A stretch of DNA of 61,411 nucleotides from NCBI GenBank assembly GCA_017938285.1, contig JAGBBW010000094.1, positions 1 through 61,411 of the forward strand, given 5' to 3'. Shown here one piece after another: positions 16,214 to 34,672 of the stretch (position 1 is its first letter; each line of letters starts with the position of its first letter). Below the pieces are notes generated by a model. The model was given only the letters and a program-made list of their open reading frames with translations, had not been told where the DNA came from and did not search any database. The DNA is from Lachnospiraceae bacterium. GTDB lineage: Bacteria > Bacillota > Clostridia > Lachnospirales > Lachnospiraceae. Made by a program: the position numbers and the translations under genes.

Positions 16214-16939
16214 TTATTCAAAATCTGCCCTTCCCAAATTAATGTCTGCTTTCCTTGCCTGACTGCACAAATCCCGCACCTGTAACGTATAACTCTTCCC
16301 ATCCTTCACAAAATGTGTTCCACACTGTCTAAAATCAAAGCAAACCTTCTTTGCCCTGCATTGCTCCCGGATGTCAAGCACCCAGTCATAATCAAGCGGT
16401 CTTGCATTCTTATCCGACTCCCCACCGACCACAACCAGGTCGATATTGTCCAGATAAGCCGAAATATCCATTCGTTCTATCATAGGCTGGCACACAATAT
16501 TCTTATGCTTTATCGGAAGCTCACGAAAAATGTTCAGACGGTAATCCGCCCGGTCCTGATTCTCCACCGTGCAGCTCACCACCACATTATCATAGCCATC
16601 GCCCCAGTCCGCAGGTATACAATCCAGAAAACGCTCTATCCTCTTTGTCAAAAACAAAAACGTTAAATCAGAGCGTTCCTTTATCATCTGCCAGCAGTCC
16701 TTTCGCCATTCATCTGCTTCCTCAATTAAAAAGTCGGAGGAAAAACACACATACACCAACTGTCCGGGTTTCATTTTGTATTCACCTTTTTTGTCCTTCC
16801 GGACTGGTGCGTCAAACTTGTCCGTTTTCGTAATCTGGTTTGTGTCAGTTCCCCGTTTTGCGTCTCCTTTATGGGTATAGCAGAACTTACAGCCTTCACT
16901 ATATTTGTGGCAGCCATGCCACGGATCCCATCTCGCCAT
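16214..16939 (-). CDS. DUF5131 family (phage Gp37/Gp68-like) radical-SAM-related protein
   Basis: 241 residues. The N-terminus has MARWDPWHGCHKYSEGCKFCYTH, giving a CxxxxxCxxCY cluster like that of radical SAM relatives, followed by FSSDFLIEEADEWR, FLFLTKRIERF, VVSCTVENQ and VVVGGESDKNARPLDYDWV. This is the phage Gp37/Gp68 family (DUF5131), found on phages and chromosomes, whose reaction is unknown. Start at ATG 16939 after AGGAG; codons further upstream overlap the preceding gene. Confidence 0.82.
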   Translation of the reverse strand: MARWDPWHGCHKYSEGCKFCYTHKGDAKRGTDTNQITKTDKFDAPVRKDKKGEYKMKPGQLVYVCFSSDFLIEEADEWRKDCWQMIKERSDLTFLFLTKRIERFLDCIPADWGDGYDNVVVSCTVENQDRADYRLNIFRELPIKHKNIVCQPMIERMDISAYLDNIDLVVVGGESDKNARPLDYDWVLDIREQCRAKKVCFDFRQCGTHFVKDGKSYTLQVRDLCSQARKADINLGRADFE

Positions 16940-16979
16940 TGTTTCTTCTCCTGATTCCTGATTTTTTGTAATTATTGCA

Positions 16980-17633
16980 TTATTCTGCTGTTTCTGCATT
17001 TACAGCGTATACTGTCTTTTCTTCGAACTTTTTCCTAAGTTCTTCTGGGTTTCCTAAGATCAGTTCCTCTTTCTGTAAAAGCAATACCTGATTTTCATAC
17101 ACCAGAGCAAACAAATCTTTTGTTTCAAAAGTATATTCCAGATGTTCATAAACAATTTTCTTTTCCTCTGTTTCAATGCCACTTAAAACAAGCTCTGTAT
17201 CAGAAAACCGAATCCGCAGCTTTTGGTTCTCCATGCCAGTATTCAACTGCTCCAGCAGCATTTTTGCTTTTTTCTCAAAAATATCCTGTTTATTACTATC
17301 CCTGCGCAGGTACAAGACACCAAGCAACATAGAAAATACTCCTGCAATCAGCGGTCCCATCAGCTCCTGAGGCTGCATGATTCCCGGTGCAAAGAGGAAC
17401 ACTCCCATGACCAGAAACAAGCCGCCCCATAACTTTTTCCGTGCCTTTCGTCTTTTTTGCACTGCTTCCGGTGCACGCCCCACACCGTTCATTTTATCTG
17501 TAATCTTCCAAAGAGCGGGCAGCTTTTTTCTGGAATTCTGCTGCGTCATCTGCTCCAGTATCCAGGCGGTCTGGAGGGAGAGTTCTTCCACATTGTAGGG
17601 TTTCATAAAGAAAATAAAATTCTGGTATGCCAT
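16980..17633 (-). CDS. Two-helix membrane protein with YcxB-like domain
   Basis: 217 residues. A basic cytoplasmic start is followed by two membrane helices (LWGGLFLVMGVFLFAPGIM and LIAGVFSMLLGVLYL, about residues 68-110). The C-terminal half resembles the YcxB-like domain: LRIRFSDTELVLSGIETEEKKIVYEHLEYTFETKDLFALVYENQVLLLQKEEL. Function unknown. Another in-frame ATG lies nine codons in (17606). It is 41 bases downstream-adjacent to the DUF5131 gene on the same strand. Confidence 0.65.
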   Translation of the reverse strand: MAYQNFIFFMKPYNVEELSLQTAWILEQMTQQNSRKKLPALWKITDKMNGVGRAPEAVQKRRKARKKLWGGLFLVMGVFLFAPGIMQPQELMGPLIAGVFSMLLGVLYLRRDSNKQDIFEKKAKMLLEQLNTGMENQKLRIRFSDTELVLSGIETEEKKIVYEHLEYTFETKDLFALVYENQVLLLQKEELILGNPEELRKKFEEKTVYAVNAETAE

Positions 17634-17713: not shown

Positions 17714-19468
17714 CTACATTTCCTCCGGGCATTCCATTCCCAATAATCCACAGGCTTCCTTTAACACCTTCTGTACCGCCTCCACCAGCACCAGCCGCGC
17801 CTGTTTTTCTTCCTTCTCTGCACTCAGAATCGGACATTCATGGTAAAATTTATTAAACGCACTGGCAACAGAAATAATGTACCGGGCCACAACGGAAGGC
17901 TCATACCGTTCCACTGCTCCCAACACCGCATCCTCGTAGCCAGCCAGTGTTTTCACAAGGGCATAGCTGGTATCCTCGGTCAAAAGATTATATTCCAAAT
18001 TCTTTTTCTTCCCATCTGCCCACTGTTCTTTCGCTGTACCGCCTGTCTCCTCTTCCCTGCTCTGCTTCTTTTCCTCTTCACTCTTCCGCAAAATACTTTT
18101 CGCCCGGGCATAAGTATACTGCACATAAGGCCCCGTTGTTCCCTCAAAGCTCAGCACATCCTCCCAGTTAAAATCCACATTTTTGATTCGCTGATTGAAA
18201 AGGTCGTGAAAAATTACAGCCCCGACTCCTACCATCTTTGCCGTTTCTTCTTTGTTTTTCAATTCTGGATTTTTACTCTGAATAGCCGCCATGGCCCGTT
18301 CCATGGCCTCCTTCAAAATATCCTCCGCATAAATAATATTGCCGGACCGGGTAGAAAGCTTTGCCCCTGCCAGACTTACCAGACCATACGGCACATGTAC
18401 CAGGGAATCCGCAAACTCATATCCCATTACCTTAATTGCCGTAAATACCTGCTTAAAATGCAGTGTCTGCTCCAGTCCGGTCACATACAGGCATTTTTCA
18501 AAATCGTAGGTTTTCTTCCGGTACAGCACTGCAGCAATGTCCCTGGAATGATAAATAGAACCACCGTCACGCTTCGTAATCAGACAGGGCGGCATATCAT
18601 ACTCCTCCAGACTGATAATGTTTGCCCCCTGACTTTCCTCAAGTAACTTCTTTTCCTTTAACTCCTCCACCAGTGCCGGAACCTTGTCACGGTAAAAACT
18701 CTCTCCCAGGTAAGAATCAAAGGAAATACCTAACAGCTGGTACACCCGTTCAAACTCCACCATGCTGATTTCTTTGAACCAGTTCCAGATATCCAGTGCC
18801 TCTTCATTATTTTGCTCCATTTTCACAAACCAGCTCCGGGCTTCTTCCAAAAGATCCTTGTCCTGCTCCGCCTCGTTATTAAACTTTACATAAATCCGCA
18901 GCAGCTCCTCAATGCCCTTTTCTTCCACCGCTTCCTTGCTGCTCCACCGCTTGTACGCCACAATCAGTTTACCAAACTGGGTACCCCAGTCCCCCAGATG
19001 ATTGATTCGTACCACCCGATAGCCCAGCTTCTCATAAATCTTGTACAGAGAATTTCCAATGACTGTGGTCCGCAGATGTCCCACATGGAAATTCTTTGCG
19101 ATGTTTGGGGAAGAATAGTCCATGCAGATTGTCTTTCCCTTCCCTGTGTGCTTAACGCCACAGTTTTCCTGGCTGACCACTGTAAGACACTGTTTTACAT
19201 AGGCTGCCCGGTCAAGAAACATATTGCAGTAGCCATTCACCGCTTCTACCCTGGCAATTCCAAGCGCCTCTTTGTCCGCCTCCAGGCTTGTTTTCAGTTC
19301 CTCTGCAATCAGCTTCGGACTTTTCCGCAATACCTTTGCAAAAGTATAGCAGGGCAGGGCGAAATCCCCCATGGCGTCATCCGGTGGCGTTTCCAGAAGC
19401 CCCCATATCTGGTCACTGGTAGTTCCTTCTAACAGTTTTGTCAGATAGTTACAGATTGTTTGTTTCAT
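17714..19468 (-). CDS. argS: Arginyl-tRNA synthetase
   Basis: 584-residue class I synthetase that charges tRNA-Arg. The HIGH-type motif is FHVGHLRTTVIGN (near 125-137), preceded by DYSSPNIAK, and the C-terminal all-helical anticodon domain (DALRVEPS-type block) ends the protein with LLTEDTSYALVKTLAGYEDAV and YIISVASAFNKFYHECPIL. As in most ArgS, KMSK is degenerate (AKLSTRSGN). ATG 19468 is chosen, 7 bases after GGAAGGAG; the ATG two codons earlier is too close. Expression appears to be controlled by the leader peptide and attenuator at 19506-19696. Confidence 0.97.
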   Translation of the reverse strand: MKQTICNYLTKLLEGTTSDQIWGLLETPPDDAMGDFALPCYTFAKVLRKSPKLIAEELKTSLEADKEALGIARVEAVNGYCNMFLDRAAYVKQCLTVVSQENCGVKHTGKGKTICMDYSSPNIAKNFHVGHLRTTVIGNSLYKIYEKLGYRVVRINHLGDWGTQFGKLIVAYKRWSSKEAVEEKGIEELLRIYVKFNNEAEQDKDLLEEARSWFVKMEQNNEEALDIWNWFKEISMVEFERVYQLLGISFDSYLGESFYRDKVPALVEELKEKKLLEESQGANIISLEEYDMPPCLITKRDGGSIYHSRDIAAVLYRKKTYDFEKCLYVTGLEQTLHFKQVFTAIKVMGYEFADSLVHVPYGLVSLAGAKLSTRSGNIIYAEDILKEAMERAMAAIQSKNPELKNKEETAKMVGVGAVIFHDLFNQRIKNVDFNWEDVLSFEGTTGPYVQYTYARAKSILRKSEEEKKQSREEETGGTAKEQWADGKKKNLEYNLLTEDTSYALVKTLAGYEDAVLGAVERYEPSVVARYIISVASAFNKFYHECPILSAEKEEKQARLVLVEAVQKVLKEACGLLGMECPEEM

Positions 19469-19505
19469 AATCATTCTCCTTCCTCATTTCTGCGTAAGCA
19501 GGTAA

Positions 19506-19556
19506 TAAAAAAAGAACCGCAACAAACTGGCACCATGCCAAATCTATTACGGTTCT
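19506..19556 (-). terminator. Attenuator terminator upstream of argS
   Basis: On the transcribed strand AGAACCG (19550-19556) pairs with CGGTTCT (19513-19519), extended by T-G and A-T pairs, encloses a TGGCA/TGCCA inner hairpin and is followed by seven T (19506-19512). It sits 38 bases before the argS start. Confidence 0.85.
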
Positions 19557-19652
19557 GCTATGATTTCTTTATAAACAGCACCGCACGAAAACAAGACGTA
19601 CTCTCTTGCAGCCATGCGGTAAAATTTCATGGACTACAAGAACTTACGTCTT
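19550..19652 (-). promoter_or_regulatory. Mutually exclusive RNA helices of the argS attenuator
   Basis: Helix A: AAGACGTA (19645-19652, the last Arg codons of the leader) with TACGTCTT (19593-19600), extended by TCTTG (19637-19641) with CAAGA (19604-19608). Helix B: ACCGCA (19615-19620) with TGCGGT (19580-19585). Antiterminator: TGCGGTGCTG (19576-19585) with CAGAACCGTA (9 of 10 pairs), which uses the terminator's 5' arm. A and B interlock and cannot form together as a simple fold; B blocks the antiterminator. Confidence 0.7.
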
Positions 19653-19696
19653 ACTCTGCGTCTTAATCTTAAGCTGTTTACACAAGATACTTTCAT
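19634..19696 (-). CDS. Arginine-rich leader peptide of argS
   Basis: A 20-codon frame immediately upstream of the argS attenuator, with six Arg codons clustered in its second half (LRLRRRVRRK; codons AGA, AGA, CGC, AGA, AGA, CGT) and a TAG stop. A purine-rich GAGAGGGA lies about 7 bases before the ATG. Codon clustering for the cognate amino acid, the following overlapping helices and the terminator are the hallmarks of ribosome-mediated attenuation: slow decoding of Arg codons would leave helix A free to form and allow read-through into argS. Regulatory role is inferred; the peptide itself probably has no other function. Confidence 0.8.
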   Translation of the reverse strand: MKVSCVNSLRLRRRVRRKFL

Positions 19697-19805
19697 GTTA
19701 TTTCCCTCTCTTTGGAATATGCAATGTACTTTATCATATTTGAAGTCGAAATGCAAGCATAATTTTGTGCTGATATTTTTCTACTTTTTTACCAATTCAT
19801 GTTAT

Positions 19806-20121: not shown

Positions 20122-20415
20122 TTAACACTGCCGTTTTACTATTTGCAACTCATATCCTAACGCCTGAAGTATGTTACAAAATATCCGCAGAGAGGGACTA
20201 TTTTCTCTTTTCTCAATCCGCGAAATCACCTGCTGCCTGCTCCCGGTCAATTCTGCCAGTTGGCTCTGCGTCATTTTTTCTTTCTTCCTGATACATATCA
20301 TCTCTCCAATCAGGCGATATTCTTCACGACTATCTTCCCATAATTGTTCAAACTCTTTTGAGGTACTTTTTCTTTTTTTAATTTCTTCCTGTACATTTAA
20401 CTGTTCAAAAGGCAT
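20122..20415 (-). CDS. HTH (XRE) antitoxin of a RelE/HigB-type module
   Basis: 97 residues. A helical N-terminal stretch with EEIKKRKSTSKEFEQLWEDSREEYRLIGEMI is followed by an XRE helix-turn-helix (MTQSQLAELTGSRQQVISRIEKRENSPSLRIFCNILQALGYEL). It lies 17 bases downstream of a RelE-superfamily toxin gene; toxin-first order with an XRE antitoxin is the HigBA arrangement. The antitoxin probably binds the dyad at 20801-20822. Confidence 0.87.
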   Translation of the reverse strand: MPFEQLNVQEEIKKRKSTSKEFEQLWEDSREEYRLIGEMICIRKKEKMTQSQLAELTGSRQQVISRIEKRENSPSLRIFCNILQALGYELQIVKRQC

Positions 20416-20432: not shown

Positions 20433-20771
20433 CTAAATAAAACTTTTTCCCAACATTTTTCCAAGCTCTTTTGCCCGTCTAATTACAACTTTCTTATCCG
20501 TCTTTTCTGTCCGATTTTTTTGTTTACGGCATGCGTGCAGTAAATATATATCCTCTTCCTCTACCGTAACATAAAAAATCCTGTTATGTTTTTGAAAATA
20601 GACCTCATAGATTTTCTTTTCCCACTGCTTAAATATTATTTTCTCTAACTCTCCATTTTCCATACATTCCAGTACGGAAAAGGCATCTACCCGTTCCGGT
20701 TCTGTTAATGAATCGATATACTCCATTATCAAATCCCTACCGGAAGAAGATTTATAAGTGTGTAAATTCAT
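20433..20771 (-). CDS. RelE/ParE-superfamily toxin (HigB/Gp49-like)
   Basis: 112 residues, basic, with the Gp49/HigB pattern: a GRDLIMEYIDSLTEPERVDAF helix, IIFKQWEKKIYEVYF and RIFYVTVEEEDIYLLHACRKQKNRTEKTDKKVVIRRAKEL, where the K/R-rich helix after HACRKQ carries the residues used for mRNA cleavage in this family. Start at ATG 20771 after AGGAGGG; upstream in-frame codons run through the promoter. First gene of a two-gene operon with the antitoxin. Confidence 0.87.
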   Translation of the reverse strand: MNLHTYKSSSGRDLIMEYIDSLTEPERVDAFSVLECMENGELEKIIFKQWEKKIYEVYFQKHNRIFYVTVEEEDIYLLHACRKQKNRTEKTDKKVVIRRAKELGKMLGKSFI

Positions 20772-20798
20772 GTCCCTCCTTTCTATCTCTCCTCTCTC

Positions 20799-20827
20799 AT
20801 AATACAACTTATTCGTTGTATTGTCAA
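20799..20827 (-). promoter_or_regulatory. Promoter and operator of the toxin-antitoxin operon
   Basis: TTGACA (20822-20827), 17-bp spacer, TATTAT (20799-20804). The spacer is filled by a perfect dyad AATACAAC-N6-GTTGTATT (20801-20822), a textbook place for autorepression by the XRE antitoxin. Confidence 0.85.
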
Positions 20828-20948
20828 GTAAAAACAAAGCGTTTCTGACCATATACAGCCAAAAACACTATATTTTTTCTTGATACTATTCTGCTTTTTT
20901 CTTCGCCCCGATTTCCACACACCTGTTCTGCCAGCCTGCTCTAAATCC

Positions 20949-34394: not shown

Positions 34395-34672
34395 ATACAA
34401 AAAGCACCCAAAGCTTTGCATATTTCATGCATAGCTAAGGGTGCAGTAATCGCACGGTTCCACCTTGACTTTTCACTTCAGATTCCATCAAATCCTATCC
34501 TTTAACGCAGGCTTACGGTAACACTTACTGGTATCATTAGCGACACACTTCGGCGTTACAGCTCTGGAATGGTTTTCATTTAGCTTTCACATAAGGAACT
34601 TCCACCAAATGTTCCTCTCTCTGGATGCTTCCGATAAACTACTCTTTCCGTCTTCGCTTTTCTTATGTTGTT
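34395..34672 (-). ncRNA. T-box riboswitch of thrS
   Basis: Leader RNA that senses uncharged tRNA. The T-box core AAGGTGGAACCGTGCG is at 34451-34466. A terminator follows: GCACCCTTAGC (about 34434-34444) with GCTTTGGGTGC (34404-34414) and a T-tract. Stem I elements (AGAGAGAGGAAC...GGTGGAAGTTCC) are recognisable. A plausible specifier is ACC (Thr) at 34530-34532 in the sequence GATACCAG. Confidence 0.93.

Follow-up and report, generated by a model that had tools for sequence, protein, structure and literature searches.

A candidate leader-peptide attenuator sensing charged tRNA-Arg upstream of a seemingly auxiliary arginyl-tRNA synthetase gene in Lachnospiraceae

The window analysed here, the whole 61,411-nucleotide stretch of Lachnospiraceae DNA, encodes an arginine--tRNA ligase (argS, 586 aa) at 17714–19474 on the minus strand. 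Its product scores 486 against the TIGR00456 cut-off of 261.65, contains the Pfam catalytic, DALR and N-terminal domains, and belongs to the clade of arginyl-tRNA synthetases (ArgRSs) that carries the attenuator described below. A gene for a DUF5131 protein lies downstream (16214–16999, minus strand), and the ORF between it and argS (16980–17633) matches no Pfam family at E ≤ 0.001. Upstream of the argS leader, genes for an HTH_3 protein (20122–20415, minus strand) and a Gp49-like (DUF891) protein (20433–20852, minus strand) are arranged in tandem, presumably as a toxin-antitoxin pair of the HigBA/RelBE type.

The space between these genes and argS holds a leader whose parts had been proposed from the letters of the DNA alone. 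That sequence-only reading described a short Arg-rich frame, a terminator with seven T and a set of competing pairings ahead of argS; with the coordinates rechecked, all of these are present on the minus strand. The leader peptide ORF (MKVSCVNSLRLRRRVRRKFL, 19634–19696, with its ATG at 19696 and a TAG ending at 19634) comprises 20 codons, six of them for Arg, and is directly preceded by a GAGAGGG ribosome-binding sequence. Six of the ten residues in its segment LRLRRRVRRK are Arg. Boxes resembling a –10 element precede the leader ATG by 23 to 54 nt, these being best-match picks made without a control, on which no promoter is claimed.

Five helices can be drawn in the leader RNA, all on the minus strand. 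The 5′ strand of helix H0 (UCUUGUGUAAACAGC, 19673–19687) consists of the codons preceding the Arg run and is matched, judging by duplex energies, to a 3′ strand at 19579–19566 (GCUGUUUAUAAAGA) that overlaps the antiterminator. Helix H1, identified by covariation and, for its 5′ strand, also by the ribosome scan, pairs the segment running from the last Arg codons through the stop codon and a little beyond (AAGACGUAAGUUCUUGUAGUCCAUG, 19628–19652) with CAUGGCUGCAAGAGAGUACGUCUU (19593–19616). H2, a putative anti-antiterminator hairpin supported by pairing and covariation, spans 19580–19620 (ACCGCAUGG:UCGUGCGGU, with an inner CAAGA:UCUUG); it reuses bases of H1 from the middle of the leader and is mutually exclusive with both H1 and the antiterminator. 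The antiterminator pairs UGCGGUGCUG (19576–19585) with CAGAACCGUA (19548–19557), a pairing that is conserved without covariation and whose 3′ strand overlaps the 5′ arm of the terminator. The intrinsic terminator itself occupies 19507–19556, with the stem AGAACCGUAAUAG...UUGCGGUUCU followed by seven U (seven T at 19513–19507). As a whole, the 221-nt window leader folds at –76.6 kcal/mol, a z score of –6.6 against 200 dinucleotide shuffles.

A search of the whole window with Rfam 15 at gathering scores returned a single match, a T-box (RF00230, 99.9 bits) at 34663–34434 on the minus strand, located 5′ of thrS (34203–32443), as the sequence-only reading had supposed. T-box or riboswitch control of the window argS was rejected, with no match at its leader at gathering score and, at E ≤ 10 over 19400–19800, only seven low-scoring matches to unrelated families (best E 1.9), none of them a T-box or riboswitch.

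Homologous leaders and their helices

Relatives of argS were gathered from 61 genomes (loci from the best 30 matches) and from 71 contig loci, and Arg-rich ORFs were sought up to 600 nt upstream of every predicted argS start. A pattern filter for LRRR..RRxLL-type endings retained 25 distinct leaders, the window's included, though such a filter cannot itself show the generality of the peptide. From these 25 a covariance model (model R1) was built and run on 397 genomes of the family and 392 of the order; nine further distinct leaders came from its matches and one, L044, was added by hand, giving 35 (alignment A3). The ten leaders outside model building score 98.8 to 151.3 bits. Weak model matches (E 0.001 to 1) at ten loci (L114–L120, L161–L163) contain no Arg-rich ORF followed by TGCGG. 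L044 (1781–1846 of its locus) had escaped the pattern filter with a stop codon displaced by three codons (RRKLLQRM*), a natural variant in which the H1 partner is also slightly altered.

The 35 distinct leaders, all from Lachnospiraceae relatives, share the pattern ..NSLRRRxRRKLL* and encode peptides of 15 to 21 residues with four to seven Arg each. Lacrimispora xylanisolvens DSM 3808 (L040) and L. defluvii (L045) are among the carriers. In L049 and L091 the length of 15 residues is probably an underestimate, as an in-frame ATG occurs three codons earlier; the same two leaders are the only ones without a Shine-Dalgarno-like motif, which a broad motif list detects in 32 of the 34 leaders for which upstream sequence is available. 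No part of the peptide varies less than the Arg run. Conservation of Arg codons, one of the checks proposed by the sequence-only reading, is nearly complete: core codon R1 is AGA or AGG in 34/35 (AGA 33, AGG 1, GAA 1), R2 is CGN in 34/35 (CGC 27, CGT 4, CGA 3, AGC 1), and R3 is AGA in all 35. Changes in the first two core Arg codons are synonymous in 8 of 10 cases, and gaps within the coding part are multiples of three, a regularity that the in-frame filter favours. Between leader and gene, an intrinsic terminator with a run of 3 to 8 U ends each of the 35 rows, the shortest runs being those of L003 and L004, where a C interrupts them. By these comparisons the argS attenuator leader is a conserved feature and not a product of chance, because it is kept in 35 distinct homologues.

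Covariation was the second check, and it held for H1 and H2. In alignment A3, 97.1% of the 625 cells of H1 are paired, and sliding the partners by one to three columns lowers this to 32 to 48%. In comparison with 500 shuffles, which ignore the relatedness of the leaders, both-side changes affect 8 of 18 pairs (4.5 in shuffles; 7/500 as many) and doubly changed cells number 19 (6.3 in shuffles); no shuffle equalled H1 in cells paired, doubly changed cells or covariation score, while further pair types are unremarkable (74/500). Five leaders (L047, L109, L159, L160, L091) have replaced Arg CGU with His CAU and carry the matching change in the partner strand, from G-C to A-U; the first four are close kin by argS or by sequence. 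Elsewhere in H1, one position that is C-G in other leaders is U-A in L111 and U-G in L049 and L042, and L128 has C-G in place of U-A. The cells of H2 are paired in 99.4% and 98.2% of cases in two computations (the latter over 490 cells). Its covariation score exceeds all 500 shuffles, under the same disregard of kinship, with double changes in 2 of 14 pairs (31/500 shuffles as many).

The expected covariation did not extend to the antiterminator, which is conserved (94.2% of 241 cells paired) but shows no double changes, no excess of covariation over the shuffles and no better pairing of cognate than of non-cognate strands (p 0.147). This may be because its strand is common to several helices, leaving little room to vary. 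The terminator stem is paired in 94.9% of 275 cells, also with no excess of double changes, and its cognate arms pair better than non-cognate ones (p 0.0008). Taken from the alignment, H1 and H2 are mutually exclusive helices kept by covariation, one of them made from the leader's own codons.

H0 is an additional helix that would join the leader's first codons to the bases directly 3′ of UGCGGU. In the window it reads AAACAGC:GCUGUUU, and quite different bases form it in L007, L111 and L113. Cognate duplexes average –11.2 kcal/mol and non-cognate ones –7.9 (0/5000 permutations as low), with the cognate partner best or tied best in only 4/35 because relatives share sequence. It is weak in L040, L041 and L045 (–3.7 kcal/mol) and in L102 (–4.5). 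In alignment A1, with the columns as fixed by MAFFT, a modest 77% is paired, because the position of the helix shifts between sequences. Without translation of the leader, H0 would be expected to promote termination.

The synthetase behind the leader

In a quick tree of 106 ArgRS proteins, the 29 that are preceded by a leader form one clade (SH-aLRT 100); the row labelled as leaderless L164 is in fact the argS of genome G716, behind leader L160. For the remaining 77 loci of the tree, the attenuator model detected no leader in front of argS. Five matches arose in these loci at E ≤ 1, and the best (L061:3682–3802, 24.4 bits) lies at and beyond the 3′ end of argS and is probably an ordinary terminator. 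On this tree, one origin on one ArgRS clade is enough.

Strong model matches (E < 1e-18) are confined to the window's family: they occur at 11 sites in 10 of 397 genomes sampled from the family, in 5 of 392 from the order, which again belong to that family, and in 1 of 398 from the phylum, which is the genome of the window. Each set is a sample taken with strict filters. The proposal that the leader replaced a T-box of leaderless argS genes of the same type was not supported: T-box searches were empty at gathering score in 19 argS loci, two of them leader-bearing (L007, L049), and at E ≤ 0.01 in 12 of the 77 leaderless tree loci. Other elements observed around argS in the collection are a Clostridiales-1 RNA just beyond the end of the argS match (L008:3197–3348) and a THF riboswitch in another argS locus (L009:4081–4181). 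One argS of the leaderless group (L142, G315:C4:217486–219171) contains a single in-frame TAA.

The leader is associated with the possession of a second ArgRS. The window genome encodes another enzyme of 34% identity (G000:C140). Within the family sample of 397 genomes, 33 contain argS of the window type (E < 1e-150), 8 with the leader and 25 without it by the model; a second ArgRS of the other type is found in 8/8 of the former and 0/25 of the latter. A second check of the 25 leaderless genomes, this time querying with the other type and scoring every candidate, again gave a single ArgRS in each. As a single origin of the leader suffices, this contrast of 8 with 25 does not represent 33 independent events. 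Outside the family sample, genomes G002 and G716 fit the association, and in G001, which is 78% complete, the leader and argS are present and no second ArgRS was found.

An intact argS follows 29 of the 35 leaders and is broken or missing behind the other six. Remnants remain behind L091 (middle missing), L102 and L106 (a C-terminal piece) and L159 (an N-terminal stub). Behind L112, whose Arg run has decayed (NSLERREEERRLL), lies an ORF that appears methyltransferase-like as read without a family search. The sixth case, L128:1477–1662, is a second, orphan copy of the whole attenuator with no argS within the locus, in a single-contig genome (G371) that has an intact leader-argS pair elsewhere. 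Control of other genes by the element was considered and set aside, the six leaders being read as relics after argS loss. Three genomes checked among the broken or lost cases (G010, G142, G625) keep only the other ArgRS. Some of the contigs with broken argS are metagenome assemblies, in which single cases could be assembly errors. Isolated C-terminal argS pieces in L095, L097 and L099 (around 1950–2280; about 80–90 residues, 53–76% identical, with no N-terminal part in the stretch read) are apparent further losses of the window-type gene.

The loss of argS behind six leaders suggests that several lineages can do without the window-type enzyme, which would suit an auxiliary role. From these comparisons the attenuated enzyme looks auxiliary and inducible. 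The alternative for this part of the interpretation is that starvation controls the main ArgRS of the cell and that the other enzyme is minor. Both proteins pass the NCBIfam argS cut-off, and the window type is the only ArgRS found in the 25 leaderless genomes. Against such a role, 351 of the 384 family genomes with a match have no window-type argS, only weaker matches as of the other type, and where the window-type gene is lost or broken the checked genomes retain the other ArgRS. Control of a main ArgRS is considered quite unlikely.

Ribosome position and the proposed mechanism

Each of the 35 leaders was folded as far as the terminator loop with a ribosome placed at every codon, using a 29-nt footprint assumed from standard toeprint distances. 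With no ribosome the mean probability (P) of the antiterminator is 0.27, exceeding 0.5 in 10/35 leaders and leaving it closed in 25/35. With the A-site on the residue preceding the core run it reaches 0.99 (above 0.5 in 35/35), and it then declines from 0.96 at R1 (34/35) through 0.81 at R2 (28/35) and 0.68 at R3 (26/35) to 0.28 at codon +5 (10/35) and 0.02 at the stop codon (0/35). In silico, this bears out the proposal of the sequence-only reading that a ribosome stalled early frees the antiterminator and one at the stop codon closes it. From codon –7 to –1, ahead of the run, the predicted P is also high (0.63 to 0.99), since masking H0 is by itself enough to release the antiterminator strand; the switch is therefore modelled as staying open for as long as the ribosome has not passed the Arg run, and not as a peak on the Arg codons only. 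L035 opens weakly, with 0.65 one codon before R1 and 0.15 at R1. An earlier scan of 25 leaders that included no upstream RNA gave open states at R1 to R4 in 25, 24, 24 and 18 of 25, at the stop codon in 5/25 and without a ribosome in 9/25. When the full-length RNA is folded to equilibrium, the terminator is preferred in every ribosome state (mean P 0.98, 25 leaders). The switch must therefore be kinetic, and the antiterminator has to form first during transcription.

With considerable confidence, the element is proposed to regulate a second, auxiliary arginyl-tRNA synthetase through ribosome-mediated transcription attenuation, in response to the level of charged tRNA-Arg. With ample Arg-tRNA, the ribosome would reach the leader stop codon and cover the end of the leader; H2 could then form and sequester the antiterminator strand, so that the terminator would halt the transcript ahead of argS. 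During a shortage of Arg-tRNA, the ribosome would stall at the first Arg codons, covering the H0 5′ strand and leaving the end of the leader exposed. H1 would form and disrupt H2, UGCGGU(U)GCUG would pair with CAGAACCGUA, and the terminator would be pre-empted, allowing argS to be transcribed. In an untranslated leader, H0 and H1 would tend to hold the antiterminator strand, making termination the default in most leaders. The leader ORF, the terminator, H1, H2, H0, the association with a second ArgRS and the single clade come from sequence and comparison, and the dependence on ribosome position is computed; on these grounds we infer the response to arginine, the kinetics in vivo and the auxiliary role.

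A bolder version of the same mechanism, held to be unlikely, would make the element a double-lock attenuator and a new RNA family in which only an Arg-paused ribosome opens both locks. Such a ribosome would cover the H0 strand and spare that of H1, and neither absent nor completed translation would open the switch. The attenuator would then drive a spare emergency ArgRS, perhaps one able to withstand a natural compound that inhibits the housekeeping ArgRS where these anaerobes live; if so, that inhibitor would await discovery.

The ribosome might instead be stalled by an antibiotic of the macrolide type or by the basic nascent chain, and not by uncharged Arg-tRNA, with the RNA switch itself unchanged. 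Macrolide-type drugs reportedly arrest ribosomes at basic-X-basic motifs, as in ErmDL, the leader peptides do contain runs of basic residues with R-X-R motifs, and drug-induced leader peptides are common in Firmicutes. The regulated gene, however, is argS behind 29 of the 35 leaders, and within the peptide it is the Arg run that varies least, its changes mostly synonymous, which makes a drug or nascent-chain stall very improbable. An untranslated RNA element, T-box-like or another riboswitch, in which the structures are real and the ORF incidental, is slightly less probable still: H1 is stable even without a ribosome, but the leader has no T-box or riboswitch match at E ≤ 10, it shows Shine-Dalgarno-like motifs (32/34), gaps in threes and synonymous Arg changes (evidence partly conditional on how the leaders were selected), and the antiterminator is predicted to be closed without a ribosome in 25/35, so that such an element would need some ligand as an inducer.

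Comparison with known systems

One of the closest parallels to the proposed attenuation by Arg-tRNA is that which Vecchione and Sello reportedly described in 2010, a ribosome-mediated attenuator on an auxiliary tryptophanyl-tRNA synthetase (TrpRS) gene of Streptomyces. Both would exert leader-peptide attenuation on a second, inducible aminoacyl-tRNA synthetase. The Streptomyces system differs in sensing Trp instead of Arg and in belonging to Actinobacteria, and the two are likened by description, not by sequence; to our knowledge it has no helix of the H0 type. In the classical trp, his and leu attenuators of Enterobacteria, the ribosome sets alternative helices, the terminator is the default and an untranslated leader tends to terminate, all of which the argS element would share. 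In contrast to these, the argS element has more segments, its anti-antiterminator is a separate hairpin, and the lock for its untranslated state is formed between leader codons and the antiterminator strand.

T-boxes bind tRNA directly, in contrast to the proposed attenuator, and none is found at the argS leader at E ≤ 10. One of the three argS genes of B. cereus ATCC 10987 is preceded by a T-box (PMC2494555, in excerpt). This gene and the thrS of the window resemble the argS element in placing a synthetase gene under a terminator and antiterminator that respond to tRNA charging.

The sequence-only reading had regarded ribosome-mediated attenuation of argS as notable in a Firmicute. Leader-peptide attenuators in Firmicutes are less exceptional than this implies, as others have been predicted within the phylum. 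In bacilli, His leader peptides are predicted upstream of hisS and hisZ paralogues, and the authors considered these, to their knowledge, new outside Proteobacteria and Actinobacteria (PMC2965389, as excerpted). Attenuators of his operons are reported in three Firmicute lineages (PMC9413887, in the part available). As far as these extracts describe them, they too combine a leader of cognate codons, an antiterminator and a terminator, partly on duplicated synthetase-type genes; they concern histidine and other lineages, are predicted, and are likened here by description and not by sequence.

A Leu-rich leader peptide precedes the isoleucine operon of S. aureus (PMC13009471, in excerpt). It likewise belongs to Firmicutes and would link a leader peptide to transcription antitermination under amino-acid limitation, differing in that the operon is biosynthetic and concerns branched-chain amino acids. 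For speF orf34 of Salmonella (PMC6386406, from an extract) and for rbfL of S. aureus (PMC13009471, likewise), ribosomes are described as pausing at the Arg codons within an upstream ORF. By these accounts, neither acts on an intrinsic terminator and each serves another gene, speF through Rho, RNase G and RNA structure and rbfL through occlusion of the ribosome-binding site. Second synthetases that operate under stress or drugs have been discussed as well (PMC9437257, in part).

No leader-peptide attenuator with an intrinsic terminator for argS or arginine was found in Rfam or among the papers listed by the literature searches, most subscription journals lying outside these. The kind of mechanism is already known; the apparent novelties are the amino acid sensed and the gene controlled, the RNA family, H0 as a lock and the link with a duplicated synthetase. 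If the proposal is true, it adds an arginine-specific leader-peptide attenuator with an intrinsic terminator to the controls of synthetase genes in a phylum that often uses T-boxes for them, along with a comparative set of 35 leaders, a covariance model and natural compensatory changes. The association with a second ArgRS would suggest that the pressure came from arginine starvation or from an inhibitor of ArgRS. An attenuated ArgRS beside a second ArgRS would also link this control to gene duplication, as with inducible second synthetases elsewhere.
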